A stretch of DNA of 64,000 nucleotides from Isoetes taiwanensis (taxonomy: Eukaryota; Streptophyta; Lycopodiopsida; Isoetales; Isoetaceae). Each line of letters opens with the position of its first letter. The stretch's first letter is position 1. This document shows positions 8,201-42,666 of the stretch, in pieces. The notes below the pieces were generated by a model, which did not search any database, was not told the DNA's origin, and saw nothing but the letters and a program-made list of their open reading frames with translations. Both the position numbers and the translations under genes were made by a program. The stretch covers positions 5,528,600-5,592,599 of the forward strand of contig JAJEKV010000058.1 of the NCBI GenBank assembly GCA_021234155.1, written 5' to 3'.

Positions 8201-8352
8201 CTGGTTGGTATTACCGGGGTTTGACTCCCCGGCCAGGAAATCTTCTGTATAGATAGTTGGTCCATTTATTTGTTGCTGCAGTTTCTTATTTCGGATTTTG
8301 TTCCAAATTTGTGTACACCTGATTCTGCTGTTGCTTCTACCTCCGGATGTTT
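5300..8352. other. Non-coding stretch with one SINE and simple repeats
   Basis: Apart from the SINE listed separately I see no gene. There is a 21-base direct repeat, 'AAAGATGCAAAATAAA' with variants, in about 2.7 copies at 7,479-7,537, and a run of about 20 T at 7,652-7,672. The segment 7,680-8,350 is more GC-rich than its surroundings and may be the disrupted target of the 9.1 kb transposon, but no protein family is recognisable in it. Confidence 0.4.
6081..6290 (-). mobile_element. tRNA-derived SINE, copy 1
   Basis: On the minus strand an A-box-like segment (plus coordinates about 6,251-6,280, reading TAGTCTAGTGGTAACA) is followed about 35 bases later by a B-box-like segment (about 6,220-6,240, CTCGAGTTTGAGAC). 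The body ends in TGGCATGACATTAAAATA. The same 3' phrase ends the SINE at 25,009-25,145, so the two appear to belong to one family or to share a 3' tail. It has no coding capacity and would depend on a partner LINE for movement. Confidence 0.5.
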
Positions 8353-8376
8353 GGGTAAAAGAAAGCTAGGGTGTCT
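8353..8376 (+). repeat. Left terminal inverted repeat of the 9.1 kb transposon
   Basis: Begins GGGTAAAAGAAAGCTAGGG and ends TGTCT. Its reverse complement occurs exactly at 17,438-17,461. Immediately inside, 8,375-8,400 holds the palindromic word ACATTTGGCCAAATGT. Confidence 0.8.
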
Positions 8377-8642
8377 TACATTTGGCCAAATGTAGAGTAA
8401 GAGATGTATCACATTTCAAATACATAACCGTTTTTTCAGTATGTACATAATAGCTATATTATGGAATCTTTTTTTTCGGAACTACTTGCCACGTCAATTA
8501 AAACGCAATCATGAAGCAGATTTCAATTCCCGGGCTTCTAACCACTCCAAGAAACGCCTGAACGTTAGGAGAATTTCCCACTTTCGGCTAAAACTTCGCC
8601 CAGCTCGAGATTTCCCTCCTTCTTGCCGTAATTCCTCCGCCT

Positions 8643-8651
8643 AACCCTAAA
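8643..8651 (+). promoter_or_regulatory. Telo-box upstream of the transposase start
   Basis: AACCCTAAA lies 38 bases before the proposed transposase ATG at 8,689. Telo-boxes of this sequence are common just upstream of plant start codons. The position is suggestive, but the word is short. Confidence 0.35.
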
Positions 8652-8688
8652 CCACGCAAGAACAATGATGAACAACGAAGGAACGTAA

Positions 8689-11600
8689 ATGGCGCAAGAA
8701 GATTGCAATATCGGGAATGTGACAAAGAAAATGAAGCGTAAGATTGATGAAATTTGTAAATTTATATATGATCGGGTTCAAGATTTACGCCCCAGGTGCA
8801 AAGGAGAGCTTTTAGCGCTGAAAACCGGGATGAAAGGTCGTACTTCTTTTTGAACTCGCCATTGGAAATCCAAATAGCAAGCAATTCGAAGGATACTATG
8901 CTAAAAAATATCCGCGGAAGGTCTGCGGGGAAGTGAAACAAGCAAATAGCAATGATAAATTAGCGACTAAGCATTCCCCGTTATCAATGATTGTTGGTGA
9001 GAATGGAAAACTCGTGCAAAAGGAGTAGCCTCCAGAATTCTTCAAGTGCAAGCAAGAAACCTCACAAAAGCTGCAATTAGAAGAAAGCGGATGTCATTAT
9101 CAGGTGCTAATATGTGGGCACTGGCAGGAAGGCAACCCAGGGCAGACATGCTTCCGGAATCAACCAAACAGTTGGTAAATGAGTTTTGGTTAACCCACAC
9201 AAAAACTTCTCCAAAGTACAGGGATGTCAGGAAGAAAAGGACACTTCCAATCCAGTTTTTGGACATGCCCCAGGTCAGTTTTAAGTCTTTTAATCCTCTT
9301 TTTTGCAAGCTTGATAGAAGCTAGCTTCTGTGCATCCTGGATAAGTTTAGTAATCCTATTTGCATTCCATGTAAGGGATGTATCTGATATACATTGAAGT
9401 ACATCCAACTACCGTAATTATATTTTTACACTTGGAGGTATTAAATGAGCTATGTTTAACAGGAAACGTACTAGGATGTACTTCCAATTACATCCAATGT
9501 GGCATAAGGCAGAAAATGTGTTGAAAGTCAGGCTGTGTTATTATAGTCTTGATTTTTGTAGTTTCCAAGTACATTACATTACATTTTAAGCTTTCCTGAT
9601 CTCAAGATAGTTTTTAAAGATAGGGTGATACATAAAAGTATTTAAATGTACTTCCGTCCATAACAAAAGTATGAAATACATACATCTATAATACAGTGAC
9701 ACTGTCTGTGACCTGGTTACATATTGAGTTTTTTATGTACATCTGGGAACTCTTTGGAGTACATTCTTTATACATTTATACATATCATGTACATGGTATG
9801 TACGATGTTGTGGTATAGTAGTTGAATGTATATCAAATCATGATCTGAGTGCCATAGAACTAATGGAATGTCTGCAACATCTTTGAATTCGTAAGTAGTT
9901 CTAATTTATATCTTACTTATACATGTCGCTTTTTTCCTTGCAGAGTGAATTGTATGAGATGTTCAAAGATGAACATCCTGAAGTGCAGATTAGCATCAGA
10001 AAGTTCGAGCTGCTTAAGCCTACGTGTGTGAGAAGGTTGAAAGAGAGGAACACATGCTGCTGCGTGAAGCATGAACAAGCTGATCTATACAGAAAAGCTT
10101 TTACCGTCCTGAGGAGCAAATTTCATGCCAATTGTACATGTTCTTGTGGTGTTTGTGCAGCAGATGAGAACAATGGCGCCTCGCTAAGCTCCTTCTAAAA
10201 CATTTCAAAATGTTGGTGCTATGTGGAGAGCTACGGCCCTGTGACAAGGAAGGCTAAGAGTGGCATAGTTTGGATCAGGTCAAGGGAGAGTGCCGGGTAA
10301 TCGAAAATATTCAAATCTGTCCTAAGGAGAAAAGAGTCGCAGAATGAGAACATTGAATGGCAAGTTTACAAGCACGTGAACTAACCTTCCAAAGTCGGCA
10401 CTTCAAGGAGGTTGAAGCTTGTTACCGAAAAGCGGGACTCGGTGCACATTGCTTGACAAGATGTTTCAAAGACCTTACAAAGTTCACTAGTACAACTTTT
10501 CAAAGAAGTTGGCGAGAGCAAACAATTCAGAAATCGATTGCAAAATTTGAGGGATGATTCTCGCTTTTGTCAAAGAATGGACTTTGCAGAGAACTACACT
10601 TTGCGACCATTCGGAGGAGGTTCAAATCCGAGAGCATTGGAACAATGACCGATAACTATTCTCGTGCATATAACCATGATGAAAGTCAATGGCGAAGCTG
10701 AAAAAAACCGTTCATTTGTATGTTTCGATGTTATGAAGCATGATGCTTTCTTTGTTCAGCCGCACTCAAGAAGCACCATATTTGGATGATGCAAAAGGTT
10801 TTGGCCACATCAAATACCATGTCATGTGGTCTGATGGGTGTCTTTGCTTTCGGTTTAAGTGTTCTCGAGCCTTTTATTTGAATGTGGCCCAATATTATAA
10901 CAGGTATAAAATTAGGATGCAGTGGAATTATTTTGGCTCAGGCCATGGAAAAGGAGAACATGATGGGCAGGCTGCTTTGGAGAAAAGGTTCCTAGCAGAC
11001 GAGCAAAGGAAAGAGAATGGTGTTCCGATTTTGGGTGCCAACTCTGCTTGCACTTTGCTGAGACAAAAGAAGTGCAAAATGGACAGAGTCATATGGGAGT
11101 TGATGGCAGAAGACATTAACAGGGACCCTCGTTCAGATTGTGAGACATTGCCTGGTACTCTAGCTATACATTTTGTGTCTGCTATTAATCCAGCTGACCC
11201 AACACTTGTCATGTATAGATCCCTGTCATGTTTTTGCAATGGTTGCTTGAATTTCAGATGGGGAGAATGTGAGAATCTCGAGCATTGTGGTGCGTGGAAG
11301 CTGCATAAACTGGAGCCTAGTTCGGCCCAGGTCGACGAACAAGAAGAGCTAGTTGGTTTTTATGCAGCTGATGAGCAAGAACTGTCCGATGTACTCCAAA
11401 TTGGAGACATATTTGCATCTTTTGCTGCTCCAGGGAATCATGAAAATGTTCCATACGCCGCCCTCCTTTTGCGTGAAGGAGATGCATATTCTTCAGGAAG
11501 ATGTGATTGACGACTATGGAAATAGAATGCTTGCTGGTGACAGGGTTATAGCTGGTCATTACTATCAACTGCTACAAGGCACAAAGCACAAGTACAAGTT

Positions 11601-11769
11601 GTTGGATGACAAAATAGTATTAGTACCAGCTGAATCTGTAATTGGAGCAAAGTTCACGATGCAGCAGGTCAAGCATAAGTTGAAGGGGGCACGTACAGCA
11701 TATATGATCACACGAGAGGTGCATGACATGCTTATATCAAGCCTACCTGAGATTGTTGAGTGCACATGA
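8689..11769 (+). pseudogene. DDE-type transposase relic of the 9.1 kb transposon
   Basis: The proposed start is ATG 8,689 (a basic N-terminal block to about 8,851). A well-supported intron spans 9,274-9,943, with CAG/GTCAG and TTGCAG boundaries and reading frame kept ('FLDMPQ' to 'SELYEMFKDEHPEVQ'). The exon after it has a Cys/His cluster ('CCCVKHEQADL', later 'CTCSCGVC'), probably zinc-binding. The catalytic core follows: DFAENY at 10,580-10,597 (first Asp), 'MWSDG' with Asp at 10,833-10,835, and 'HGKGEHDG' at 10,944-10,967 supplying the last acidic residue. The C-terminal domain runs on in another frame to the stop at 11,767-11,769 ('DDYGNRMLAGDRVI'). Frame slips occur at about 10,600, 10,650, 10,760 and 11,480, so the copy is inactive unless some are sequencing errors. 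The same motif order is known from animal transposon proteins; superfamily unassigned. Confidence 0.65.
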
Positions 11770-11813
11770 CTAAGTTCTGTACAAAGGAACTTTCATATTT
11801 GCCATCATCTTCT

Positions 11814-12375
11814 GTTATGTTGAGAAAACTAGTCGATTGCTGTAAGTTTTTTTGTTATTTACTTATTTTTTAATCTGAAGTGCATTTTGATACTTCAATT
11901 TCAGTATCACAGAATATCTTCTGTGATCAAGCAAAATGTATATCAGAAAGTACAAAATGTTTATCAATTATTGCATGAAGAAGTTAAACTAGTCTGTGTT
12001 ATGTTGAGAAAACTAGTCGATTGCTGCAAGTTTTTTCTTATTTACTTCTTTTTTAATCTGAAGTGCATTTTGATACTTCAATTTCAATATCACAGAATAT
12101 CTTCTGTGACCAAGCAAAATGTATATCAGAAAGTACTTAATGTTTATCAATTGTTGCATGAAGAAGTTAAACTAGTCTGTGTTATGTTGAGAAAACTAGT
12201 CGATTCTTCGCAAGTTTTTCTTATTTACTTATTTTTTAATCTGAAGTGCATTTTGATACTTAAATGTCAGTATCACACAATATCTTCTGTTTCCAAGCAC
12301 AATGTATATCAGAAAGTACAAAATGTTCATCAATTGTTGCATGAAGAAGTTAAACTAGTCTGTGAACTTGTTCTG
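11814..12375 (+). repeat. Three tandem copies of a 183-184 bp unit
   Basis: Units begin near 11,819, 12,003 and 12,186 with GTTGAGAAAACTAGTCGATT. They differ by a few substitutions, with the third most divergent. Each contains the palindromic word TCACAGAATATCTTCTGTGA or a decayed form of it. The array fills the gap between the 3' ends of the two convergent transposon genes. The 164-codon open frame through it (11,887-12,381) simply follows the repeat and is not taken as a gene. Confidence 0.8.
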
Positions 12376-12614
12376 TTATAATGGATATCAATAGCTTTTC
12401 TTTTGATTCATGAAACAAAGCAGAAAGTGGAACATGTATGGAGACAAAAACTCTTGTATTACATATCACAAGATATACACAACCTGGTCATATCGGATAT
12501 GATGCCAATATATACAAGTCGTTGTTCATGTTTTATATTAACATTAATTTACAATCAAAATCTGGTCACAAACCGATGTGAAGCCAAGACATACTATTTC
12601 ATTGTTTCAATATG

Positions 12615-13295
12615 TTACTTTCTTGCAGCTTGTCCATAGCCTGGACATGCCATCTCTGTCCTTGTAGCCCTCTGAAAGCATTTGCCTCCAAACAGCTGTT
12701 GTTAGTACATCGGATGGATTGCGTAAAGGATTCTGCTTCACATCTTCATTTGTGTCCGGTGCTATCAACAAACCCTCTAGCCATGGTTTCGAAGTGTCAA
12801 GAGACCGTGTGTCTTCAACATCACTTTCCCCGCCATGAAGGTGGGCATATGCAATTTTCGTTGGGATTGAAGAGCATCTTGTACTCAGAGTCGTCTACTA
12901 TTAGTGTGTTGCCGTCATTCCTGTCTGGATACTTCTCGTATATAAACTCAATTGGCTTCAGATACAAAGGTTTGTCTTCACTTGCTGCAATCCGGAAAGG
13001 CAACTCCAAACAGTGGCTTCCATCAAAGGTGAACCTTAAGTCCCTTATCTGCGTCATTGTGAGTATTTTATCCACTACTCTTGATAGGTTCCATGGAGCT
13101 ATTGATGACCATATTCCTACTTCAAAGTGTTCAAATACAAATTCCGTGAATTGCCTAGGTGGGGCCTTAAAAACAACACTTTCTTGCCTATTATGTCATA
13201 ATTTCCAACTAGCTGATCATCTGATACCAAAGTCCTATGTATTTGTTTTGCCAAAACATTATTGATATCAAATACTATCAACCTTTTCGGTACAC
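12615..13295 (-). other. NIF/FCP1-like HAD phosphatase domain of the accessory gene
   Basis: After a CATATCAG acceptor the frame reads 'VPKRLIVFDINNVLA', the HAD motif-I position of the NIF (CTD phosphatase-like) family. Further on come 'FVFEHFEVGIWSS' (motif II region), 'DKPLYLKPIEFI' with the motif-III Lys, and 'NTLIVDDSEYKMLFNP' with the paired acidic residues of motif IV. The C-terminal part 'PWLEGLLIAPDTNEDVKQNP' also fits the family. Motif I is Asp-Ile-Asn (nucleophile codon 13,267-13,269), not Asp-x-Asp; a similar DxN form is common in a plant NIF-like subgroup. Frame slips at about 13,190 and 12,825 break this copy. Assignment is from motif order, without a database search. Confidence 0.6.
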
Positions 13296-13442
13296 CTGAT
13301 ATGAAAGAACATGCAATTTATCAATAAAGTATGGTGGATTTGAATAAAAAGAGATTTTATTCATTAAAAATCAATGAAAAAATGTGTATTTTATAATCAA
13401 ATAGTGTTTAGCATTGACAATAGGGATAGGTCAATTTCTCAC
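13296..13442 (-). other. Intron joining the Ulp1-like and NIF-like exons
   Basis: The donor is G/GTGAGA after codons for 'TNKC' and the acceptor is CATATCAG/GTGTACC. The 147-base intron is phase 1 and the joined codon is Gly, giving 'KCGVPKRLIVFD' without a stop. Without splicing, the upstream exon would run on to a TAA at 13,408-13,410, so an alternative short product ending there is possible. Confidence 0.5.
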
Positions 13443-14563
13443 CACATTTATTAGTACCGTGTGGTCTAATAGTTTGGGTCGCGATGTGAATGTGGTCTAA
13501 CTCCTCGAAGTAGTGCTCGGGTGAGAACATCATGACGATCCTCTCAGATACTTTGGCAAGAACCAGCTTCGGGTAATCTGCAAATGTGACAACAATACTT
13601 ACATAATAAGTATTAAAAACCATTTGTTTGCATGACAAAAGAAGTGAGACACTCACATTGGTAGTTTTACCACACACGATTGTGTCTACAAACTTCTGCA
13701 TATAAGCTGCAACATATAGGCCACATGAATCCCCATCTTTCTGCTGTGGACACTTATGAATCTTCACAACTGGTGAAGGATTTTGTCCATGCTTCAAAAA
13801 AGTGGGACACTCGACACAACCGCGTGCCATAGTGAGTATGTGGAGCCTGCAAAAGACCAGATCTATTTTGTAGCAAATGAATGAAAAAAGCTGCTAACAT
13901 GGTATCCAATCTACTCAATATTAATAAAAGGAGATGTGAAATACAAAATACCTCTTAAGTGCAAGCATGTCAACGCCAATGTCCCGGCAGAATTGAAGAT
14001 CCGAATGTTGATGGTGTTCTTACTCTTAGTAAGTGCCATGTTGAAGATGGCCAAAGTGTGATGTTCAAGAACTCTACATAGCATTGGAATCATGATCCAT
14101 CCGCGACTTCAGCCAATTTATCCCCTCAGAAGAGCTACCTTTACAATATCTCTTCCACGCTTTCGGAGGCTGCCATAGATTTATCTTTTTCGCTTGCCTT
14201 GGCCCATGCCGCAGAAATTCCATGAAGCTGTCCGTTGGGAAGAACCGGACGTCGACCTTCTTATCATCATCCGGAACACGAGAGCTGCGGTACCTATAAC
14301 AAGTTGAAAAGGATAAAATTACTAACTTCACTTACACATACAAATGAACAAGTTCAAAGTCCAGTACCTGGCATACATATCCACATGCCGGTTGGAAAAT
14401 TTTCCCACATCCATGTCCAGACATCTTGTTCAAATAAATAACACTCCATTTCGTGCAAAGATCCGGGAAAATCCTTGCCTTCTTGAGCTTCATCATTCGG
14501 TTCGCACCAAGGCATCGTATGATGGCGTATTGATTCTGAATGCGGGTTCAATGACCAGTACAT
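13443..14563 (-). other. Ulp1 (C48) SUMO-protease-like domain of the accessory gene
   Basis: The exon at 14,331-13,950 contains 'CRVLEHHTLAIFNMAL', the Ulp1 His motif (His codon 14,061-14,063; the usual following Trp is His), then 'IFNSAGT', where the catalytic Asp is expected but Asn is read (13,992-13,994). The exon 13,846-13,657, between a TTTGCAG acceptor and a GTGAGT donor, holds 'QQKDGDSCGLYVAAY' with the nucleophile Cys at 13,723-13,725 and the oxyanion Gln before it. The exon 13,577-13,443 follows, with a GTGAGA donor. Ulp1-type enzymes process SUMO and SUMO conjugates. The Asp-to-Asn change could lower activity, though Asn or Gln at this site occurs in some cysteine proteases. The upstream block 14,563-14,354 ('WTWMWENFPTGMWICMPG') probably belongs to the same domain. 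Confidence 0.65.
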
Positions 14564-15813
14564 TTACACAAATCATCTACATTCGTCTACTACTATTTAT
14601 AGTATTTTAAAGTTTTTAACTTGGATACTAGATGTAAAAAAAAATGTAAGACATGTAGATCAAGTTACCAGAGAGATCATTCTTACGCTTTCTCGATATC
14701 GTTTTCTGAGTCAAGATCCATTTCCTTCCCTGCCTTTTTGGTTTCCTCACTCAGATTCTTATTAGGTCCAGAATCCTCGTCTTCAACCTCTCCTGATTTC
14801 TCATTGGCATGAAATTGGCGTCCTTTGCTATGTCGAAGCAATATTTGACACAAACTTAAAAGTATCCCCGCTCTACATCTTGATGCTGGAAGATTCCTCT
14901 TCATTAGGACCTGTAAAAGATAGGATGTCATGGATTTCTCACCTTTGTATTAATTGAAATAAAATGTTTTCTTACTGTTTTCTACCGCTTTAATTGTCTT
15001 CTTCGTGGCTTTTTAGCGTGGAGTTCTTCTTTGGAGTCACATTTTCTGCTGCTGCCTTTACTTTTGAAGATGTGGCCTTAGCCTGCTCCCTCAATCTCTC
15101 AAGTTCCTCGTCATAATCTGGAATGTCACCATGCAGACCTGAAGTGCCAGCCTCCTCAACCTGTATCACCGCAGGAATAGTGATTTTGCTTTTTCCTTCA
15201 ATCTTTGCTTTTTTCCCTCGGCTACATCTTGCACCTCAATTTTCTTTGGAACCTCCAAACTGTGGAAAACCGAACCAAGAATATGAAATTGCTTCCTCCT
15301 CGACACAATGCAAATTGAATTTGAAAACAAGCGCGACCTTGACCCGTGGTGTAATTTCGCCAAGTAGTAGTTTTTGGCACTTTGAAGCTCTGAAAATAAA
15401 TCACATAACAGTCAGATATCAGTCTCAAACTAATCAGTCTCTAACTGTTCTGTACATATCAATAGCTGTACATATTACTAGAACTGATCTACATTGAAGT
15501 ACTTTGAGTACATACACATGTAAACAGCTATTTATCTAGATGGAATGTACATGTAATGTACATGAATGTGCTCCAATGCATGCACATGTACACATCAGAC
15601 ATTACATAAAATACCTCTAAATGTTCTGCCACAAAACTCAGTACACAACTCCTAATTTTATGTATTTAAGTTCTACATTTAGGACCCTACACTGTGAATG
15701 TACAACATGTATGTAAGAAACACATATATGTATGACATGCAAGCCAAGGAACTATAAGTATAAAATAACCAGTACACTCCTACATGCTGTAGCAAAACCT
15801 TAAGTGCAGCAAT

Positions 15814-15864
15814 CTACATGTAAATGGATTCTACATGTAAATGGATTCTACATGTAAATGGATT
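15814..15864 (+). repeat. 17-bp tandem repeat, three copies
   Basis: CTACATGTAAATGGATT repeats three times head to tail at the edge of a region (15,440-15,780) dense in GTACAT and ACATGTAC words. A similar GTACAT-dense region lies in the transposase intron (9,330-9,870). Confidence 0.8.
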
Positions 15865-15966
15865 CTACATTGCAGTAATTCTGGGTGCAGCAAATTGAAC
15901 ATAAATCATGAAATACTGCTTACCTCCAGTGTACACACCCAAGGTCTTTGAAATGTTATCGTCCCA

Positions 15967-16095
15967 TTTGCATGCTCTTGGGCAGGATAGTCCAGCAGAA
16001 ATAGAATATGAGAAACAGAAGATATGAAATGAATGCTCGCATGGAGCAACTAGGATAGGTTCATTATTAGCAAAGCCATTACTGCAAAACACACA
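15967..16095 (-). other. RING-like zinc finger of the accessory gene
   Basis: The pattern is Cys-x2-Cys ('CVFC'), 13 residues, then 'PCEHSFHIFC', then 'CPRAC'. This spacing of Cys and His residues is that of a RING or RING-variant finger, which usually recruits E2 ubiquitin- or SUMO-conjugating enzymes. The exon ends at 15,924 before a GTAAGC donor. Whether all eight ligands are present is uncertain: the last pair is 'CPRAC' rather than the usual Cys-Pro-x-Cys. Confidence 0.55.
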
Positions 16096-16198
16096 TCCAT
16101 GCACAGATATGAATTTTTCTTCAGCTGGAGAGATCACTAAGCTTGTTTTGGGCTGAAGGAGAATTGCTGCAGAATGCATCATGTACTTATGCATATCA

Positions 16199-16549
16199 TC
16201 AAGCCGTCTCTGCGGCCTCAAATCGAACTTTGTGAGCCTCCTCAAGTTCTGCAATCCTCTTTTCACATAACTCCTTCTCCCGAATGGCTTTCTCCAATGG
16301 CTCCTGAATTCTCTTCAGCATTTCTTCCTTTCTGGTTCTATCCCTCATCAAAAGGTCAACCTCCTGCTGCACAGTCTTGATGTCTCTCTTATTCTGCTTA
16401 GCATCGTCGAGAACACTATTGATGTCTTCTTGTATCTGTGCTAGGTCCTCTTCATGTGCATCCTTTCTTCCTGAAATCTTATTTATATTGTCACGTAATT
16501 CTGTCTGCTGAATTTTCAGTTCTTCAACCTTGGATGTCTTTGCTAATTA
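16199..16549 (-). other. Coiled-coil segment of the accessory gene
   Basis: A 116-codon open stretch with no Met start is rich in Glu, Lys, Gln and Leu with clear heptads ('VEELKIQQTELRDNI', 'DIKTVQQEVDLLMRD', 'EKRIAELEEAHKVRF'). It ends at a TGA at 16,199-16,201. The frame of the RING-like segment takes over within a few bases, so a single slip separates them. It probably mediates oligomerisation. Confidence 0.65.
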
Positions 16550-17437
16550 ACTCTCCATGACACTTGCTTTGCCTTGAGTTTACGCAAATTCAAGCTCTTC
16601 CTTAGGGTAAAATCCTTTGCTGAAATTTAGGAACCTTGGATGTGGATTTAGAGGTCGCAATTTCTTTCGTAATAGCAGATTCTTTTGCTCCTCCCTTTGC
16701 CAAATCTTTGGCCAAAACTTTAAAAAGTATCCCAATCTACTTTTTTTACTGTCAATTGAAGGGCAAATGCACGAGCAAAGTACTCGTGTACATGGCGATT
16801 TGTGACCTCCCGCTTACCAAAAACAATTTCATAATGTTTGTAGAAGTTCTCGCCCACTCTCGCTTCACGCTAGATTCTTTGAACCCCCGTGATGTCTTTG
16901 GGCCCCCTTGCGCCGTCCATTATCTGTTGTAAATCTGGAAAAATTTCATCCGCATTTACACATCTTACATGCTTTGCTTCCACAACAATGGGTTCTTCAC
17001 AAATAAGTCTTTTTTTTGGCCCTGGTTCCTCGAAGTTTGAACCTTCCTCTTGTTTTTTCGGCTTTCTTGCTAGAATCGGCTATTTTCAAATTTTTGTTTA
17101 ATGGGTGACTTCCGGGAGGCAAAGGCGTCCATTGCTTGGATTTTGGGCAAGGATTTGAGGAAGAAGAATAGTTACAATTTAATTACTTCGTTGATCACTT
17201 TAAAACACGTAAAATGGAACGGCGGCAAATTTTTTTCCTAAACAGGAAACATTTCGCAATCTCCCTCCGAAAAATTGCAATGATTGTCCGTTCTGGTTGC
17301 CACTGCCACTCATAATTTTGAATTGCTGACGTGGCTACTCCTAATCATTACATATCCCAACTAACTAAAATTCAAAAAAATAACAAAAACGGTGCCTACA
17401 TGCCCTACATTATACATAATGTAAGGGCATTTTTTTT

Positions 17438-17461
17438 AGACACCCTAGCTTTCTTTTACCC
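17438..17461 (-). repeat. Right terminal inverted repeat of the 9.1 kb transposon
   Basis: Exact reverse complement of 8,353-8,376. Just inside, 17,400-17,430 forms a hairpin with 14- to 15-base arms (ATGCCCTACATTAT / ATAATGTAAGGGCAT, one bulged base). Confidence 0.8.
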
Positions 17462-20262
17462 GTTTGTTGCTTCGCGGGAGCTTTTCAGGTTGAAGCTTTG
17501 GGCCATTTGAATGCCCATATTTGGACGTCCTTGTGTATTTATTCATATTTAACAAGTCCAATGATTTATAATCCAATGATTTATAATCCAATGATTTAGC
17601 AAAAAAAATTCAATAAGATATGGGTTAGAGATAAGGTATGGGTTAGAGATATAAGGTATGGGAAATATGACCAAGAAAATGAGAGGCAATGGTCGAAGTT
17701 TCAAATGCGCAAATGCCAACGAGACAGGAGAAACATAGGGTTAGAGGCCTTTAGGGCAATCGTTTCGGCAGTAGACCAAAATGAGGTGCGGCTATGGCAG
17801 GTTATGGATCAATGCAACAGCGGCTGTGCGTGGATGAAGAATAGGAGGCAATATGCACATGGTTCTCTAAAAGCATTCGTTGGGTTGGCCCCCTGCATTT
17901 TGGTCACATCGGACGCAATCATCACAATAGCTTAGATCGGATTCTCAATCTATGTATTTGTTATAAGCAAGATTCAGAGCGAAAGGAACTTTGCCTCCGC
18001 TTTTAAATAACCCCAGGTAAACTTTGTATTATTTGCAGCTCAGTAAAAATATAAATAGGCGCTGATACGGATTCCAGAAAACTATATTGAATAATATAGA
18101 AGCCTAGCTCCAGATAGCACTTCAAACAGACTTGGTGCAAACGAGGCTTCCGAGTCAACACAGTGAGGTAAACTGTTTCTGTTTTATAAGATAAAACATT
18201 TTTTTGACTGTAGTGTAAAGTTCTATAATCTGTGCAGATTGTAGCCATTCTACATCTATATGTTTCTTTTGTTCAAATCTCCTTTTGGCTGAGCTTTTGG
18301 AAGTGTAAAATTGTTTCTGCTTTACCATGATTTATTTCTGTTTTTCTTCCTCCATTGTTTGCTTCATCAGCCTTATGTTCAGTCCGTCTTTACAAAAGTC
18401 AATGAATAGTTTCATCCTGTATGGAGTTTGCTGTGTATTTAATGACCTAGTTTAATGATTCACTTTTTTGCATCCAGTGGCCCTTAAACGTACATTTTGG
18501 ACATGTACATAGACAATGCAGAATCTACTCAAGAACTTGTAGTAGAACAGACGCTATCTGTTTTTGCAAAGTCTCTGCTACTGCAAAACCATTTTGGCAA
18601 CTTAGTGAAGTTCTATGAAATACCCTTGATGAATTGATGATCGATCTCTTCCTCCATGTTTGTTCTTTCAATCCTGGTCTATTTCACATGATCGAGAATT
18701 GTTTTTTTCAAATGGATTTAGCTATGTATTCTCGTATTATTTCTTTAGATCTGACTTGCACCATTGTATGAATGTTCTAGTTCTTAGACAGCCAATTTTC
18801 ATCCCATTGCATCTTTTACGTGGTTCATTATTACTTGAGTGATTCATGGTACCTTTAGTATATCCTTGCAATATGTAATGCAATTTAAAGAAGGATAGCT
18901 TGTGTGTGTACTATGTCCTTGCATGTTCCAATATTTGATCTCTTCAGTTCTTCTAATTTGTGCTTATTTTGAATGTCATACTTATTGAGGTAATGCATTT
19001 GACAACAAAGGTACATTACATGACTTTGAAAAGATGTAGGTTGAAAAAGGTATTTGATTAGCGCATTGGTTTGGCTGCCTTGTTGATGTGATATCACAGC
19101 TGGAAGAGCAGCAAACGTGGATGGTTGCACTCAGGTCTGGCTGCATGGGTGATTTTTGTTGCTTGCACTTGCTGGAGATGAAAGGCGTCTGCTCAGGAAA
19201 AATATAAATGCTGGTAGCCGTCTGCTATTTTAGGGCAAAACTCCATGTGAGTAGACAACATCAAGCATGGTAACGGTGAGAATTCTCCCACTGAAAAGCA
19301 GCAGGGTTCTGATAATGTAAATCTGCCATTAAACAACTTAATGAAAATTTTTGTAGGGCTATTTTGCTTGGTTGTTCTTTGTCTATTATACTATTTTCGT
19401 TCATAAAATTTAAAAGTTCTGATAACTAACTTATGAATCTTCTTAAAAGTTTATAGGGTTCTTCACCAAATGGAAATACCAGGGTTCAAATCCCTGATTC
19501 GCAATTATTATGACTTTATTAGTTTAAAATAACAACAAAATATTCATTGGACATTTTTTGTTGTATAAACAAATACTAATTACAAGACAAAAACATTAAG
19601 AACTTGATGCAAAAAGTATTGTGCAAACTCGTACCAATTCCAACAAAAACATTTAGAATTTAATGAGCATAAACCAATACTAGTTATAAAATGAAGACAT
19701 TAAGAATTTGATGGAGAAAGTGTCATCATTTAATGGGCATAAACCAATATGAGTTACAAAACAAAAACATTAACAATCGAATGGAGAAAGTGTCACTAAT
19801 TGAAGGAGAGAACATATAACAACAGTCTTAAAGATGACATTGGTTTCAACAAAAATATGGGAAGTGCTTCTAAGTCAAATCAATACTAATTGCATTGTCA
19901 AAAACACCATTTGTTTATCCTCAATATCTTAAATAGAACAACATTGGTTTATATAAAAAATATATAGACTTCATTGAAAAATATTAAAGCAAAAACTATT
20001 AGCAGTTTGTGTCCCAAATCATTAACTAGATGATAGACTTAAAGCACGTCAATAAATCACTATTAAGACCATGGCATTAAACCAAACAAATAAATTATCT
20101 TGAAAACCCATGATGTTGAACCATAGTAACAAACTATCTACTCTTATATAATTTATTCACACCAAGATTCGATTCCTTGATTCCCGAGTGGGGGAAAAAA
20201 TAGGAAGGAAAAAAAACGTTTCGTAAAAATTCCTACACCGACACAACTCGACACAACTGGCG
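17462..20262. other. Non-coding stretch with short repeats
   Basis: 17,558-17,600 has CCAATGATTTATAAT in three near copies, followed by duplicated GGTATGGGTTAGAGATA words. A 76-codon ORF at 17,705-17,935 has no recognisable domain. At 19,482-19,493 there is a perfect B-box/T-arm-like sequence (five-base stem CAGGG/CCCTG around TTCAAAT) without a matching acceptor stem, so it is a SINE or tRNA relic. Two or three degenerate copies of a roughly 70-base unit containing 'AAACCAATA' and 'ACATTAAGAA' lie at 19,555-19,815. Confidence 0.4.
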
Positions 20263-26513: not shown

Positions 26514-27620
26514 TCAGCAGGCAATAGCACATGGCTTCACACCTTGCCATACTGCACTTGTTCTTTGGATCTTAGAAGAAACCATAGAAGCATCATTTTC
26601 GAAGGAGGGGCTTTTGCGTTTTGAACTTTGATGAGCCTGCATCAGAGCCTTCATTACCTTCTGCCTCTCACAAGCAACTGCACTAGCATAGTATTTAACA
26701 ATCCAGGGGTGTGATAAAATTTGCTCCAAAGAGATTCGTTCCTCTGGATCAGGCCACAACATAGCCAATACAAGGCTCTGCGCATCCTCTGACACCAACC
26801 CAACTGGCCATTTCAAATGCGAAGCGGCCAAATCCTCTCCATATAGCAACCTTTCTTCAATCTCCGATGTCTTCAAACCTGAGAAGTGATGCAACCCAGT
26901 AAGGGTTTTATACAGTATCAAACCTAAACCCCATATGTCAATCTCCTTGGAGTAATTTCTCTGCACAAGCTTAGGTGCGTAATATCTTGGAGTCCCGTGT
27001 TTGCGTTTTAAATTCGGAGTCCCAAATCCTGGAAACCGAGCCGACATGCCGAAATCTGAAACCCTAATATCAAAGGGTTTTGAAGCTGAAGGAACTAAGA
27101 TGTTGGCGGGTTTTAGATCTCGATGAATAATATTATTATTGTGAAGGTATTGGATAGCTAGTGCAAGATTTCGAATAAGGAGAGCTGATTCCATTTCGGA
27201 GAGCCGACCACGTTTTTTGATCAATTCAGTCAAGTTGCATTCGCACAGTTCCATGATGAAGTGCCAGAATCCGTGGTCTTGGATTACCTCGTGAAGATGG
27301 ACTACGCCAGGGGCACGGGATAATTTCTTCATGATTTCCATCTCTTCAACGAGGTCTGTGTATTCTACAGAGGCTGTGGACATTATTTTGCAAGCGAATT
27401 CCTTTTTGCTTCCCCCTTTACTCCGGCAAAGAAAAACCGTAGCATAGCCACCATTGCCGATCTTCTTGAGCAGATCATAGCGCTCCAACAGATTGGGATA
27501 TGAAGCCAAATAAGTGCAATTCAGAAGCTGTTCTTCCGTCTCCTCCATCTCTGTATCCATTCTGTCCTGTAATGCTAACACAATGGATTGTTGTGTAGTA
27601 TATAGAAGCGCACTTCGCAT
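26514..27620 (-). CDS. Ser/Thr protein kinase (CAMK-like), intact 368-residue ORF, copy 1
   Basis: One uninterrupted exon encodes a near-minimal kinase. A short acidic N-terminus (about residues 21-35; a second Met at 21 is an alternative start) precedes the domain at about 48-310. Visible motifs are the Gly loop 'IGNGGYATV' (54-62), VAIK-type Lys in 'FACKIM' (Lys78), an alpha-C Glu near 93, the catalytic loop 'HRDLKPANIL' (166-175), 'DFG' (189-191), an activation segment with 'HGTPRYYAP', and the F-helix 'DIWGLG' (228-233). The conserved APE motif reads Ala-Pro-Lys (215-217, Lys codon 26,970-26,972); copy 2 has Glu there. That Glu normally pairs with a conserved Arg and stabilises the lobe, so activity may be reduced. 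The C-terminus (311-368) is basic and Ser-rich with no EF-hands or other known domain. The nearest group is a CAMK-like plant kinase; no closer name is justified. Confidence 0.8.
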   Translation of the reverse strand: MRSALLYTTQQSIVLALQDRMDTEMEETEEQLLNCTYLASYPNLLERYDLLKKIGNGGYATVFLCRSKGGSKKEFACKIMSTASVEYTDLVEEMEIMKKLSRAPGVVHLHEVIQDHGFWHFIMELCECNLTELIKKRGRLSEMESALLIRNLALAIQYLHNNNIIHRDLKPANILVPSASKPFDIRVSDFGMSARFPGFGTPNLKRKHGTPRYYAPKLVQRNYSKEIDIWGLGLILYKTLTGLHHFSGLKTSEIEERLLYGEDLAASHLKWPVGLVSEDAQSLVLAMLWPDPEERISLEQILSHPWIVKYYASAVACERQKVMKALMQAHQSSKRKSPSFENDASMVSSKIQRTSAVWQGVKPCAIAC

Positions 27621-28781
27621 TTTCTCGAAATATCCTTTCCTGGCCCGAGCCTTTTTTAGGGACCTTTTTACTAAACATATCCCTTTCCCTTATTTAGGGA
27701 CCAATTCTACCCAATTGCAGCTTCCGCATCAGCGCAGTTCCAGGCCCAGCACTAGGATTTTCAGGCATATCACAGCATGTTAGCACTAGAATTTCTTAGC
27801 AACGGCTGACCCGATTTCATGACCTGCAACAGCTGATCTGCAAAGCTTCGGCCTCCTTTGCAAAACTTCGACCTCCTCTGCAAGAGCTCAGGTCTCTGCA
27901 ATTCTAGGGCAGCCTTTCAGGTAGAAGCAAGCGTCTGAAGCTGGTTTCAGGAGTCTTATTGTGTTTCATTACTTCTACTACACCTATTAGAATTTCGTTA
28001 TGCCATGTTAACAACTATGAATTTAGCATTAGTATTGATGGTCAATGGGAAGATGATTGGTGTTACAGCTATGTGTCTTCTCATATTGGGAATGAGTTGC
28101 AGAGCCCTAGCCATTTTAAATTTGCATTTTTGGACTTCTGAATGCATTTATTTTCCCTAGATAATAAAGGGAGGCTAAGTGGAATGTCAAATTTCATGCA
28201 GCCAAAACTTGAATTACTTGGTCAGTTTCTAGAGCTGTGTTTGAGCTTGGAATAAGCATGTGTAGTTTGATTTCACTCTATTGTAGTTCACGCATGGAGG
28301 TAAGACTGCTTTTTACTTCCTACGTGCAATGTTTAATGCAATGTTTACATTGTGTTTGAGCTTGCAATAAGCATGCTGGATAATCCAGAGCAAAAAATCC
28401 TGTAACACCAGGTATAGGTAAGTTCTTCATTTAAGTTCTTTTGCAGGAAAGGCTATGTATAATAGCTCTAAATGTTTTATTTTTTGCACCTCATTTCTCA
28501 TTTCCTTTCTATTTGCAGCACATAGATTCTTGAACTTTGGCAGGAGGCCAGACCAATGCACAGAATACAAGGCCAATGCCAAGGTCATAAAATAATCTTC
28601 TTGCTGAAGGCTAGCAGAAAGCTGCTTTTCGATGAATAAAAGACACTGCTGATATAGGTGTTGCAATGATCGTCTTGTAAATGCATATAATTTTGTCTAC
28701 TCTTTAGATAGCAATCCACTTCCCTTATCCATCTGTTACTCATTCTGCAGGCTTAAGCTAATTAGGTCAGCCACTTAACAT
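27621..28781. other. Intergenic region between divergent kinase and F-box fragment
   Basis: Upstream of the kinase ATG; presumably contains its promoter. Short GCAAARCTTCGRCCTCC repeats occur at 27,838-27,875. The phrase TGTGTTTGAGCTTG.AATAAGCATG occurs twice (about 28,230 and 28,350). An 79-codon minus ORF (28,427-28,666) is not recognised. Confidence 0.35.
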
Positions 28782-35281: not shown

Positions 35282-35309
35282 GTGGTATCAGAGCTAGCTT
35301 GCAGACAAC

Positions 35310-36782
35310 ATGTCTAGCAGATTCGGAGCAGGTTTATTGAATGCCATAGAGGTATTCAAAGGGGATTCTGGCTTCCAAGTGTGGAAGGAAAAAGTGAAGC
35401 ATGTGCTTCAAGTAGAAGATCTATGGGATCTTATTGTATCTCCAGAAGGAGAAACCAGTGTGCTCAGCTCCAGGAGGAGATTGACATCTGAGACAAATGA
35501 GGGAAGTTCATCTTCACCTGAAGAACAAGGGGAAGTGGCAGCAGCAGAAGTTAGTGTAACTTCTGGACTAGGAGGAGTGGCTGACAGTGCAAAATTTCGT
35601 GAAGCACAAGGCATCATAATGAGTAAAGTTAGTTCAGGGATTGTGTTGAAATTAAGGGGAATGACACCAAAACAGATGTGGAATTATATGATGAAAACTT
35701 ATGAGGCTAAAACTTCTTCACAGATTGATGTACTGGAAAATGAACTGAGGAGGCTAAAGTTTCATGATAAGGACAATGTGAATGAGTTTTTCCAAACCTT
35801 TGATAACATAATTGCAGATTTGGAGGGAGCTGGAATAGTCTATTCTCAACAACAGCAAGTGCTGGCTATTTCTAGAGCAGTCACAAGCTTGGGAAATATA
35901 GCAACATTCATTAGGACTATTGCCACCACTAGAATAGAAGCTGAGAGAATGCTCAAGACTGAGCTTGAGCAAAACAGGGTGCTTGAGGAAGAAGACACAT
36001 CACAGATCCTAATGGCAAAGGGGAAAGGAAAAACTGAAAATCGCCAAGGGGGAAAAGTGGGACCATGTTTTGGCTGCAATGAGTATGGTCACATCAAAGT
36101 TAACTGCCCAAAGCTTTCAAAAGACATTCACTGCTACAATTGTGGGGGCAGAGGCCATTATGCCACGAGTTGTCCATCTCCAAAGGAAAATTTCAGAAAC
36201 AAGAATAAAGGAGGAAGGGGAAATCAGAATTTCAGAGGCAGGGGAAGAGGAAGAGGTAGAAGATCAGGCCCTGAAGCTAACTTGGCAGAAGAAATTCCTC
36301 TTGAAGAGGAAACTGGTGATGAAGAAGAAGAGGTAAGTAATTCAGCTTATTTGTCATGTGAAGATAGATCTAATGGTGATGATATTCTCATTTTAGATAG
36401 TGGAGCTGAGAAAACCATTGCCTGCTCAACAAAAATCTTGAAAGAGTGTAAAGGAAATGGAGGTGGGCACATTCAAGTTGGTAATGGCAATTTACAAAGG
36501 GTTGAAGATGTGGGAGTGCTTGAGTTATTTGACCTAAAGGGAAGAAGAGTGAATTTACAAAATGTACTTTGTGTTCCTAGTTTAGTGAGGAATTTGATTT
36601 CCATTGCTCAACTAGTTGACATGGGATTCAAAGTTGTTTTTGAGCAATTACATTGTAAAATCTTTGAAGGCAATGAATTGAAGTTTTTGGGAAGACGAGT
36701 TGGAAATCTGTTTGGTATAAATCTTAATTGTTTTGGCAGTGTGAACTTGACAACGAAACCAAACATTGAATTATGGCATTAG
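35310..36782 (+). CDS. Copia Gag-protease ORF (490 residues, ends at premature stop)
   Basis: It opens 15 bases after the primer site. The Gag domain ('GDSGFQVWKEKVKHVL' onwards, UBN2-type) occupies about residues 15-230. Two CCHC zinc knuckles follow: 'CFGCNEYGHIKVNC' (253-266) and 'CYNCGGRGHYATSC' (275-288). A Gly/Arg-rich and then acidic linker leads to the aspartic protease motif 'LDSGAEKTI' (Asp363). The start of the GAG-pre-integrase motif 'LWH' is cut by TAG at 36,780-36,782; the frame continues 'RLGHTNI' after it. The protein would coat and process the particle. The stop removes integrase and RT from the polyprotein. Confidence 0.85.
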   Translation: MSSRFGAGLLNAIEVFKGDSGFQVWKEKVKHVLQVEDLWDLIVSPEGETSVLSSRRRLTSETNEGSSSSPEEQGEVAAAEVSVTSGLGGVADSAKFREAQGIIMSKVSSGIVLKLRGMTPKQMWNYMMKTYEAKTSSQIDVLENELRRLKFHDKDNVNEFFQTFDNIIADLEGAGIVYSQQQQVLAISRAVTSLGNIATFIRTIATTRIEAERMLKTELEQNRVLEEEDTSQILMAKGKGKTENRQGGKVGPCFGCNEYGHIKVNCPKLSKDIHCYNCGGRGHYATSCPSPKENFRNKNKGGRGNQNFRGRGRGRGRRSGPEANLAEEIPLEEETGDEEEEVSNSAYLSCEDRSNGDDILILDSGAEKTIACSTKILKECKGNGGGHIQVGNGNLQRVEDVGVLELFDLKGRRVNLQNVLCVPSLVRNLISIAQLVDMGFKVVFEQLHCKIFEGNELKFLGRRVGNLFGINLNCFGSVNLTTKPNIELWH

Positions 36783-36849
36783 AGGCTTGGACACACAAAT
36801 ATTAAAAATATAGAAATGATGATAAAACAAGGCTGGTTGGACTCAGCAT

Positions 36850-37430
36850 ATTTCTTATTAGCCAGAATGACTTTAGCTAAACTTGCTCGATATTAATCCC
36901 AAAACTTTCTGTGGTTTAGCTAAACTGTACACATTTTTTCTCTCATATTTTCTAGCGTTTAGCTAAACTAACTCAAACATCATCCTAAAACTTTCTATGG
37001 TGTTGCCAACAGAAAATATTAAACCAAATTACTATACCTTTTTTTTTCAATATATTCCACTTATTTTAGTCATTTTCTTTGTGAAAACATTCTAAAACAA
37101 TGCTAATTAGCAAAGTCTAGGACTCAAATTAATTCATAATGCTAGAGAAACTACTAATCATATATTTCATATAAACTAAAATGATGTTAGCTAAACTAGC
37201 CCGAAATTCATTCTAAAAGTTTCTACGGTTTAGCTAAACAATACAAAATTTCACTCTCTTACTTTCTGGCGTTTTGCTAAAGAGCTCCAGGACTGGTGCA
37301 GTCCCGAAAAACGTTAAGCTAAAATTATAATTTTTTTCCCAATTTTTTCCATTTACTTTAGCCAATTTTCTTTAAAAATGTGCTAAAAAATCGCCAAATA
37401 GCTAAGTTTAGCCCTTAAATTATTCCATGC
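36850..37430. repeat. Foreign segment with TTTAGCTAAAC repeats inside the Copia body
   Basis: The Copia coding sequence stops after 'NIKNIEMMIKQG' (about 36,830) and resumes at about 37,432 ('RLPFTKAKRKAKEIL'). The intervening AT-rich sequence is a diverged direct repeat: 36,871-36,970 matches 37,184-37,283 at a spacing of 313 bases. The palindromic word GTTTAGCTAAAC or variants occur at least six times. The zinc-binding part of integrase is missing, so it replaced rather than simply interrupted coding sequence. It could be a MITE insertion plus deletion, or transduced sequence. Confidence 0.6.
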
Positions 37431-37431
37431 A

Positions 37432-40104
37432 CAGCAGGTTGCCATTTACAAAGGCAAAAAGGAAAGCAAAGGAAATTCTAGAACTGATTCATACGGATAT
37501 TTGTGGACCCCTGAATGTCACAGGAATATCAGGCAAACGATATTTTATAACATTTGTTGATGATTAGTTTTTTGTCTCAAAACAAAGGATCTTGCATTTG
37601 AAGCCTTTAAAAGGTTTGCTGCTGAAGAAGAGTGCTCAACTGGAAGAAAGATCAAGTATGTTCGATCTGATAGAGGAGGTGAGTACATGTCTTCTAAATT
37701 TGTAAGTTTTTGCATAAATAAAGGAATCAAGAGGCAATATACCTGTAGTTATACCCCACAACAAAATGGAGTAGCTGAAAGGATGAACAAAACCATTTTA
37801 AATGCAACTAGATCCATGCTTAAGCATGCTGGCCTTCCTAATTTTCTTTGGGAAGAGGCTGTAAAGACAGCTGTGGAAATGCATAATGTTTTGCCCTCAA
37901 GGGCTATAAATGGGAACACCCCAGAAAAAATGTGGTCAGGAAAGGAACCAAGCTATGAGAAATATAAAGCATATGGCTGCCTGGGTTATACTCATGTCCC
38001 TGAAGAACTAAGGCAAAAATTGGATAACAGATCGACCATAAGCTATTTAGTTGGATATGATGAAAATACTAAGGGGTTCAGAATGTATAATCCAGCAAAG
38101 AGGAATATTCTGATGAGCAGGGATGTCACTTTTGTGGAAAACCAGCTATACAAACCTATGGTCAATTGGAAAACAGTCAATGAGAAAGATGAAACCAAAG
38201 GAGTTGAAGAAACAATAGAGAAGGTGACAGAAAAAGGAATATCAGAAAATAAGTTAATGGTTGACTTGGATGAAGACAAAGAAAAGGGGGAAAATACTAT
38301 AGAGCAGAATATTGAGAATGGATCAGAAAAAAGAGCCATTAGAGAAGAAATAGGGGAACAAGTTACAACTGAAAATAAAGGTAAGAAAAGGAGAAGTGAA
38401 GCAGAAAGGCTTAAAGAAGAGTTAAAGTTTGATGTAGATACATATGGGAGAAAAGAAGATGGCAAAAGTGGGAGAACAGATAGATCACTTGAAGATACAT
38501 CAGAAGCATTGATTATACTAGAAACTGGAGTGCCAGAGGATTTTGAGGATGCAATAAATAGGCATGACAGTGAAAATTGGAAAAGGGCCATGATGGAAGA
38601 AATGGAATCTTTTGAAAGAACCTCAACCTATGAGATTACAACTTTGCCAAAGGGGAAACAAGCAATTGGAAATAAATGGATCTTCAAATTAAAACAAAAT
38701 GCAGATGGTTCGGCCAAGTACAAGGCAAGATTAGTGGCTCAAGGATATTCTCAACAAAAGGGGATTGACTTTGAAGAGACATATTCGCCTGTAGTAAAGA
38801 TGACTAGTATCAGAATGATTATAGCTATGGCAAATGCATTAAACATGGAATTACATCACATGGACGTATGCACAGCATTTTTGAATGCTGAGTTGGAAGA
38901 GGAAGTATACATGAGGCAAGCACAAGGATTTGAAAATGGTAAGGAAAATGTATGGAGATTGAAGAGAGCAGTCTATAGCTTAAAACAGGCCCCTAGACAA
39001 TGGTATAAATGTATTGACAGTTATCTGAAAGAGCAGGGACTTAGAAAGCTTGAAAATGATGGGAATGTATATATTTTAAAAGAGGGAAAAGGTGTGTGCA
39101 TTGTAGCCATTTATGTTGATGATTGTGTGCTAGCAGCAAGCAACATGGAGATTCTTAATCAATGCAAGGAAATATTGAAAGAAAAATATAAAATGACGGA
39201 TTTGGGGGAGTTGTCTAAGTTTTTGGGAATTGAAATTAAAAGAGACAGGGCCAATAAAAGAATATTCATGTGTCAAGAAAAGTACATTGATGCAGTGTTG
39301 GAAAGATTTAATATGCAAAGTTGCAATCCAGTGAAAATACCATTGACTGCAGGGGAAAAGTTGTCCAAACATATGTCACCAAAGACTGAAAGAGAAAGAG
39401 AAGAAATGAGAAAAATACCTTACAGGCAACTAGTTGGAAGTTTACTACATGTTGCAAATCACACTCGGCCTGACATAAGCTACATTGTAAATGTGTTAAG
39501 TAGGTATAACAGTGATCCAGGTAAACATCATTGGTTGGCAGCAAAGAAAGTCTTGAGATTCCTAAAGGGAACAAAGACAAGAGGGATTGGATATTATGGA
39601 GATGATTTGGAATTAAAGGCATATGCAGATGCTGATTGGTGTGGTGATGTAGATGAAAGGAAGTCAACCTCAGGCTATGTACTAATATTTGGTGGTGGTC
39701 CTGTATGCTGGAGAACAAAGAAACAGTCAGCCATAGCACTATCCACAGCAGAATCTGAATATGCTGCCACAACACTTGCAAGCAAAGAAATAATTTGGAG
39801 CAGAAGATTTCTGAGTGAATTAGGGATCATACAAACCAAGGGAACAACATTATTTTGTGATAGCCAAAGTTGTATAGCAATGTGCAAAAATCCAGTTATG
39901 CATGAAAGAACAAAACATATAGAGATGGAGATGCATTTTATCAGAGAAATGGTGAATCAGGGTATTGTTGAACTTAAATACATTTGTTCTGAGAAACAAT
40001 TGGCAGACATATTCACAAAGGGTTTAAGTTGTAGCAGATTTTCAAAGCTGGCAGAAGAAATGAATTGTAAGGATTATGATCTGAAAGGGGAATGTGGGAA
40101 ATAA
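37432..40104 (+). pseudogene. Copia integrase-RT-RNase H frame (open from 37,687, 805 codons)
   Basis: The integrase core begins at about 37,480 ('LIHTDICGPL') but 'FVDD' is followed by TAG (37,564) and a slip. The open frame from 37,687 includes 'QQNGVAERMNKTI' (integrase), a low-complexity Glu/Lys linker, and the RT with 'KWIFKLKQNADG', 'KARLVAQGY', 'MDVCTAFLNAEL' and the catalytic 'YVDD' at residues 476-479. RNase H has 'ADADWCGD' (from about 647) and 'STAESEYAA'. RT and RNase H look intact. Because the N-terminal half is broken, the polyprotein cannot be made from this copy. A 182-codon minus-strand frame at 38,043-38,591 is its shadow. Confidence 0.85.
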
Positions 40105-42603: not shown

Positions 42604-42666
42604 GTCTTCCGCTCAGATTGTGTGCAGACTTCGCTTTCAATTACCAGCTCTCAGTGAAAGCACCAC

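Follow-up and report, generated by a model that had tools for sequence, protein, structure and literature searches.

The genome of the lycophyte Isoetes taiwanensis carries many copies of a DNA transposon of about 9 kb with two convergent genes. The copy from which it was recognized, and for which this identity is confirmed, lies at positions 8353..17461 of a 64,000-nucleotide stretch of contig JAJEKV010000058.1 (assembly GCA_021234155.1), hereafter the window. On the plus strand it encodes a transposase, and on the minus strand an accessory protein that joins a RING-like finger, a region resembling C48/Ulp1 proteases and a NIF/HAD domain. The accessory gene is part of the element, and a two-gene element that has retained this gene is very probably the correct description. 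Taken as a whole, the explanation we favour, a large two-gene transposon family with Sola-like transposition and an accessory protein that edits protein marks, seems likely. An initial annotation of the window had proposed a two-gene transposon with this combination of accessory domains; the many copies, and the co-localization of the two genes among them, support it.

The element is bounded by terminal inverted repeats (TIRs) with GGGTA ends that, as the annotation had read them, are 24 bp long and 100% complementary (8353-8376 and 17438-17461), with GTTT on each side. The genome search for further copies with the same ends, which the annotation had suggested, covered 1,658,258,908 bases in 1110 contigs. 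With the first 648 bases of the element it returned 524 first-look candidates, of which the best 40 were scored (window included) and proved 92-100% identical. Twenty of the 39 non-window copies were read as stretches of about 10 kb, these long copies being selected via the 5′ end alone, and the other 19 as a 2.6-kb distal piece and a short proximal one. Identical 4-bp flanks, as expected of target site duplications (TSDs), were found in 15 of 16 copies with both TIRs read (window included; the exception is L026) and in 8 of 10 further such copies (exceptions L032 and L046). In total 23 of 26 two-ended copies have a perfect 4-bp TSD, at 22 distinct sites, L011 and L016 having common flanks and therefore counting as one. 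For an assumed base composition, the probability that the 4-base flanks of any one copy match by chance is about 0.004. The duplicated sequences differ among copies (TACT, TTTT, TACA, CACA, AAGG, ACTA, AGGC, TTTA, ATGA, TAGA, TATA, GGAA, TCAA, TTGG, GCTA, TTCT, TGTA and TGAT, for example), and there is thus no fixed target.

Accessory sequence is present in all 20 long copies. In one of them (L016) the NIF part and most of the Ulp1 part have gone through an internal deletion, in L009, L010 (which carries an insertion) and L018 the start of the gene was unmatched within the fetched stretch, and L022 lacks 15432-15659. Among the other 19 copies, with 2.6 kb read of each, accessory sequence was seen in 15 and not in 4. 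We also searched the genome with the NIF exon (5303 first-look candidates; best 150 scored, 50-100% identical among the matches listed and many of them stop-free), the Ulp1 part (1626 candidates; best 145 scored) and the C-terminus of the transposase (6125 candidates; best 150 scored); the pairing counts between these lists, which follow, concern the matches listed and are lower bounds. Of the 98 transposase matches with an identity of 58% or higher, at least 57 are accompanied within 3 kb by a NIF match in convergent orientation, at a spacing of 470-1100 bases in 52 of the 57 pairs, and 41 have no listed one within that distance. In contrast, none of the 52 transposase matches below 58% identity lies near a listed NIF match, even within 20 kb (57/98 versus 0/52, Fisher p 8e-15). 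In the reverse direction, at least 61 of 150 NIF matches have a listed transposase match, and at least 78 of 150 a listed Ulp1 match upstream. Four further NIF loci gave a transposase within the adjoining 1.5 kb in three cases, and at locus L072 a 77%-identical NIF copy stands beside a transposase that is 77-91% identical. The annotation had named, as observations that would count against it, copies with the transposase only and a TIR-free host gene. What we found mostly points the other way, the exceptions being the four copies without an accessory match, the 41 of 98 near transposase matches and 89 of 150 NIF matches that lack a listed partner, and the fourth NIF locus, L069, which has no transposase within 1.5 kb. 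The wider transposase family includes many long open frames without a nearby listed NIF match (for example one of 629 amino acids (aa) at 55% identity), and within that family the accessory gene seems to go with a single clade.

The transposase is on the plus strand, as annotated, and has an RNase-H-like core, but its triad is DDD rather than the predicted DDE type. The three Asp residues stand at RNase-H-fold positions, as modelled on a homologue 36% identical to the transposase. A Foldseek search with the modelled transposase found nothing at E 0.001, and the RNase-H-like fold is assigned on the VIA second look instead. Other families of the same transposase, at 47-57% identity among the matches listed, have open frames of up to 629 aa, with no listed NIF match within 20 kb. 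One of 15 transposases scanned gave a weak OTU-protease match (E 0.0069); by eye it is the related transposase P0010.

The 4-bp TSD and the DDD transposase fit the Sola superfamily, to which, on these described features, the element probably belongs. Sola elements are described with a DDD transposase, a 4-bp TSD, TIRs of 11-1124 bp and a length of mostly 2-9 kb (PMC10741241), and the 9 kb of our element is near the top of that common range. They are found in moss and are uncommon in flowering plants (PMC10741241), a review reports them from moss and pepper, Sola repeats have been annotated in the fern Ceratopteris, and Sola2 elements captured Fanzor1 genes (PMC3627910). A protein with RING, Ulp1 and NIF parts, however, goes unmentioned for Sola in the excerpts of PMC10741241 and PMC3627910. 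It is possible, if less likely, that the element represents an undescribed superfamily: a Pfam scan placed no model on the transposase at E 0.1, and the comparison with Sola was one of described features. Against this, the triad, the TSD length, the TIRs (at least 11 bp in Sola) and the size all agree with that description.

Genes for ULP proteases on transposons are a known kind, established on Mutator and CACTA elements, and the capture of Ulp-like genes by Kaonashi Mutator-like elements, cited in the initial annotation, is borne out, KI-MULEs carrying the ULP gene in reverse orientation to the transposase (PMC2528002; PMC6117577). Like these, our element is a plant DNA transposon with a ULP/C48 gene, placed, as in KI-MULEs, in reverse orientation to the transposase. 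It differs from them in its 4-bp TSD, short perfect TIRs, other transposase family and fusion of C48 to RING-like and NIF parts. Mutator-like elements have TSDs of 8-11 bp, mostly 9 bp, and Mutator membership, Kaonashi included, was rejected on the 4-bp TSD found here. Ginger1 likewise combines a 4-bp TSD with an Ulp1 or OTU domain, and its ubiquitin-type proteases have been linked to transposition (PMC2836005). In Ginger1, however, the ends are TGTNR, the TSDs are of CCGG type and Ulp1 is fused to an integrase-like transposase, and Ginger1 was rejected on the GGGTA ends and varied TSDs of our element. Kolobok (TSD TTAA) was rejected on the varied 4-bp TSDs only, which leaves KolobokP, described with 3-5-bp TSDs, compatible in this respect. 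Kolobok is also described with a C/DxxH motif that follows the second Asp and precedes the last acidic residue; inspection of the transposase alignment by eye did not show it. No element or element family with RING-like, C48 and NIF parts was among the matches listed in open-licence literature, in line with the annotation, which knew of no described plant element of this architecture; the fusion of the three domains, and the transposon superfamily that hosts it, seem to be new.

The accessory gene runs on the minus strand, as had been proposed, from a start at 17132 to an end at 12607, convergent with the transposase gene and split by introns. Its protein starts with a basic stretch and a coiled coil, continues with the RING-like finger and a charged linker, and ends with the C48/Ulp1-like region followed by the NIF/HAD domain (Table 1). 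The seven junctions inspected allow GT and AG to be assigned, with an unclear donor at one of them (near 14290-14368), and in copy L022 the basic N-terminus is readable into the coiled coil without a stop. The coiled coil of the initial annotation can be read by eye, but profile support for it is weak. The NIF domain scores 29.3 bits in the window against a Pfam cut-off of 21.8, and in a single natural copy (L027) the NIF exon has no stop and scores 65.6 bits (E 5.3e-18). By sequence, the closest solved structures to this exon are UBLCP1 and CTD small phosphatases of the NIF family (E 1.1e-5 and 1.4e-5), from which the element's protein differs in motif I, as described below, and in its fusion to RING-like and C48-like parts. 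The predicted fold of the NIF exon alone had a predicted local distance difference test (pLDDT) score of 40.5 and was not used. The RING-like finger matches RING-H2 fingers of solved structure (best match in the Protein Data Bank, E 1.1e-4), with a spacing of 3 rather than 2 in its last Cys pair, and the C48 part gave one structure match (E 0.14).

We asked of the aligned copies how variants are distributed over codons, counting only sites that at least 12 copies cover and that lie more than 4 columns away from any CG and from any column with over 2 gaps. Variants common to at least 3 copies numbered 2/457, 3/468 and 11/471 at accessory codon positions 1, 2 and 3, and 11/627 in the accessory introns (positions 1+2 versus 3, p 0.0056; versus introns, p 0.037); for variants common to at least 2 copies the corresponding values are p 0.001 and 0.017. 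The copies are related by descent and these p values are indicative only. The pattern suggests mild purifying selection on the accessory gene in the source copies.

Several observations weigh against a retained and catalytically active accessory protein. The selection signal is not significant for variants common to at least 4 copies (p 0.20 and 0.37), the codon positions depend on a stitched reading frame, and the transposase lacks the third-position pattern, its codon positions 1, 2 and 3 holding 1, 2 and 0 variants and its intron 12/358. The RING and Ulp1 motifs of the initial annotation are recognizable as RING-like and C48-like matches, but both score below their Pfam cut-offs in the window (24.3 bits against 27, and 19.5 against 20.7). 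The catalytic set of Ulp1/C48 is His-Asp-Gln-Cys; here the Asp is Asn in 20/20 aligned copies, with His and Cys kept in 20/20, and the Gln, although it can be read in the consensus as well as in the window, falls in a variable cluster that is clean in about a third of the copies. In NIF/HAD phosphatases motif I is DxDx, with a second Asp. The annotated NIF/HAD motifs pass the Pfam cut-off, but motif I reads D-I-N in 19/19 copies, aligned to the D-L-D of CTDSPL, so that the second Asp is replaced by Asn. With two catalytic positions altered, it is unsafe to assume either phosphatase or protease activity. Since papain-type triads use Asn, the protease may still work as Cys-His-Asn. The Ser, Lys and later DD pair, which carry catalytic roles in HAD proteins, are present in the NIF exon of L027, and we infer that this domain would bind more than cleave. 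Finally, no accessory homologue elsewhere was found at E 0.001 or better (4741 + 409 candidates), and for that reason a host-gene origin of the NIF domain was not traced.

These points bear on an alternative in which the element has captured a host gene as a passenger that plays no part in transposition, as with the transduplicated gene pieces in Pack-MULEs. ULP-like genes are recurrent cargo of plant transposons (PMC2528002), the altered catalytic positions and the fragile selection test fit such a passenger, and the lack of listed NIF matches near the 52 distant transposases looks like a lineage-specific gain. We nevertheless consider this unlikely, given the presence of accessory sequence in every long copy, its retention beside transposases down to 58% identity and, for the 77%-identical NIF copy at L072, beside that copy's transposase, and the scarcity of variants at the first two codon positions. 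That a host gene or another element became nested by chance in one ancestral copy is very improbable: 89 of 150 NIF matches have no listed transposase match and one 50%-identical NIF copy (L071) adjoins a different putative transposase, but only the best 150 or so of more than 5000 candidates were scored in each list, so that many partners were never scored, and the convergent layout is fixed, with 52 of 57 pairs spaced by 470-1100 bases.

For the two-gene element with a retained accessory gene, we propose that the transposase brings the 24-bp ends together, cuts the element out and inserts it into the target at a 4-bp stagger, as in Sola. The accessory protein would enter the nucleus, dimerize through its coiled coil and edit marks of the SUMO or ubiquitin type, either on the transposase or on the element's chromatin. 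Its Ulp1-like part would act as a cysteine protease with a Cys-His-Asn set, the RING-like finger as an E3 or a docking surface, and the NIF domain as a binding module and not a complete phosphatase, its ligands being, for example, phosphorylated tails like the one of RNA polymerase II. This specific function, read from motifs, is tentative. More speculative still, and in our judgement improbable, is the joint proposal that the accessory protein is a regulator (de-SUMOylation or de-ubiquitination, RING-like activity and RNA-polymerase-tail-type binding) selected against silencing or for transposase activation, and that its NIF module has moved between unrelated transposon superfamilies in the same genome, the 50%-identical copy next to a different transposase at C1001 being the case in point.

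The apparent decay of the copies may be partly artificial. The 18-row alignment left out L009, L010 and L018; for the CG analysis L016, L022 and L023 were dropped as well, together with the final chunk of the alignment. In the resulting 15 copies, substitutions relative to the majority amount to 11.9% at no more than 2 columns from a CG, compared with 1.7% beyond 6 columns, and indels to 4.3% near CG versus 2.1% away; the CG columns were picked from the same copies, a choice that favours variable columns. Of 1316 non-CG states at CG columns, 824 are TG or CA, as deamination would produce, and deamination does not account for the other 492, which are indels or other bases. Differences between copies, indels and transversions included, thus cluster at CG. 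The assembly (1658.30 Mb; 204 scaffolds and 909 contigs) was built with nanopore R9.4.1 reads (PMC8566536), and we suspect basecalling errors at methylated CG on top of deamination. The frameshifts noted in the initial annotation are present, but most of them coincide with CG sites, and some may be errors of the assembly. The copies could be less old and less damaged than their sequences suggest.

Table 1. Features of the element in the window (positions of the 64,000-nucleotide stretch)
Feature	Positions	Strand	Remarks
4-bp TSD, left (GTTT)	8349..8352	.	flank comparison; 4-bp TSDs at other copies too
Left TIR, 24 bp	8353..8376	+	
Transposase exon 1	8665..9273	+	start codon 8665 or 8689; frame broken in window copy; donor CAG/GTCAGT (slash marks the junction)
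Transposase intron, GT...AG	9274..9943	+	
Transposase exon 2, catalytic core	9944..11769	+	frame broken in window copy
Catalytic D codons	10580-10582, 10833-10835, 10962-10964	+	exon 2
Tandem repeats, 3 x 183 bp, between convergent genes	11848..12396	.	
Accessory last exon, NIF/HAD domain	12607..13295	-	Pfam stretch 12830-13156 in window copy
C48/Ulp1-like region, several exons	13447..14520	-	His and Asn at about 13951-14099; Gln-Cys stretch 13684-13785
Charged linker exons	14686..15389	-	
Accessory intron GT...AG, RING exon to linker	15390..15923	-	
RING-like finger	15979..16095	-	profile and structure-sequence match
Coiled coil	16200..16546	-	by eye; profile matches weak only
Accessory N-terminus	16583..17132	-	start codon 17132-17130; basic nuclear-localization-like stretch by eye
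Right TIR, 24 bp	17438..17461	-	
4-bp TSD, right (GTTT)	17462..17465	.	

The 183-bp tandem repeat varies from 1 to 3 units per copy in the 21 copies examined. In the window, an Rfam scan gave nothing at gathering score and a plasmid search gave zero matches. Elsewhere in the window, frames named by eye include polyprotein frames of Copia type (494 and 846 aa) with an opposite-strand gag-like frame of 455 aa (35298-40104 and 41245-42612), and a protein-kinase-like open frame of 391 aa (26514-27689). At locus L071 (C1001:420400-423400) a 346-aa and a 282-aa open frame are convergent to the 50%-identical NIF copy (C1001:423403-424071); the 282-aa frame ends in a Cys/His motif that is SWIM-like by eye, a Pfam scan of both frames gave no match of note, and the Ulp1 search had no match at this NIF copy among the best 145 of 1626 candidates. 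Relatives of the 346-aa frame are abundant (917 first-look candidates). A relative of the L071-type transposase, 84% identical (C1044:4250911-4251726), lies just outside the deleted element copy (L016:8809-9666).

Should the element belong to Sola, it would represent an abundant Sola-type element in a lycophyte. ULP-like genes occur on several unrelated transposons. In this case SUMO-protease-like, RING-like and CTD-phosphatase-like modules are combined in a single gene, on an element that is abundant and has many open exons among its copies, and transposon editing of host SUMO or ubiquitin marks thereby becomes a testable idea.

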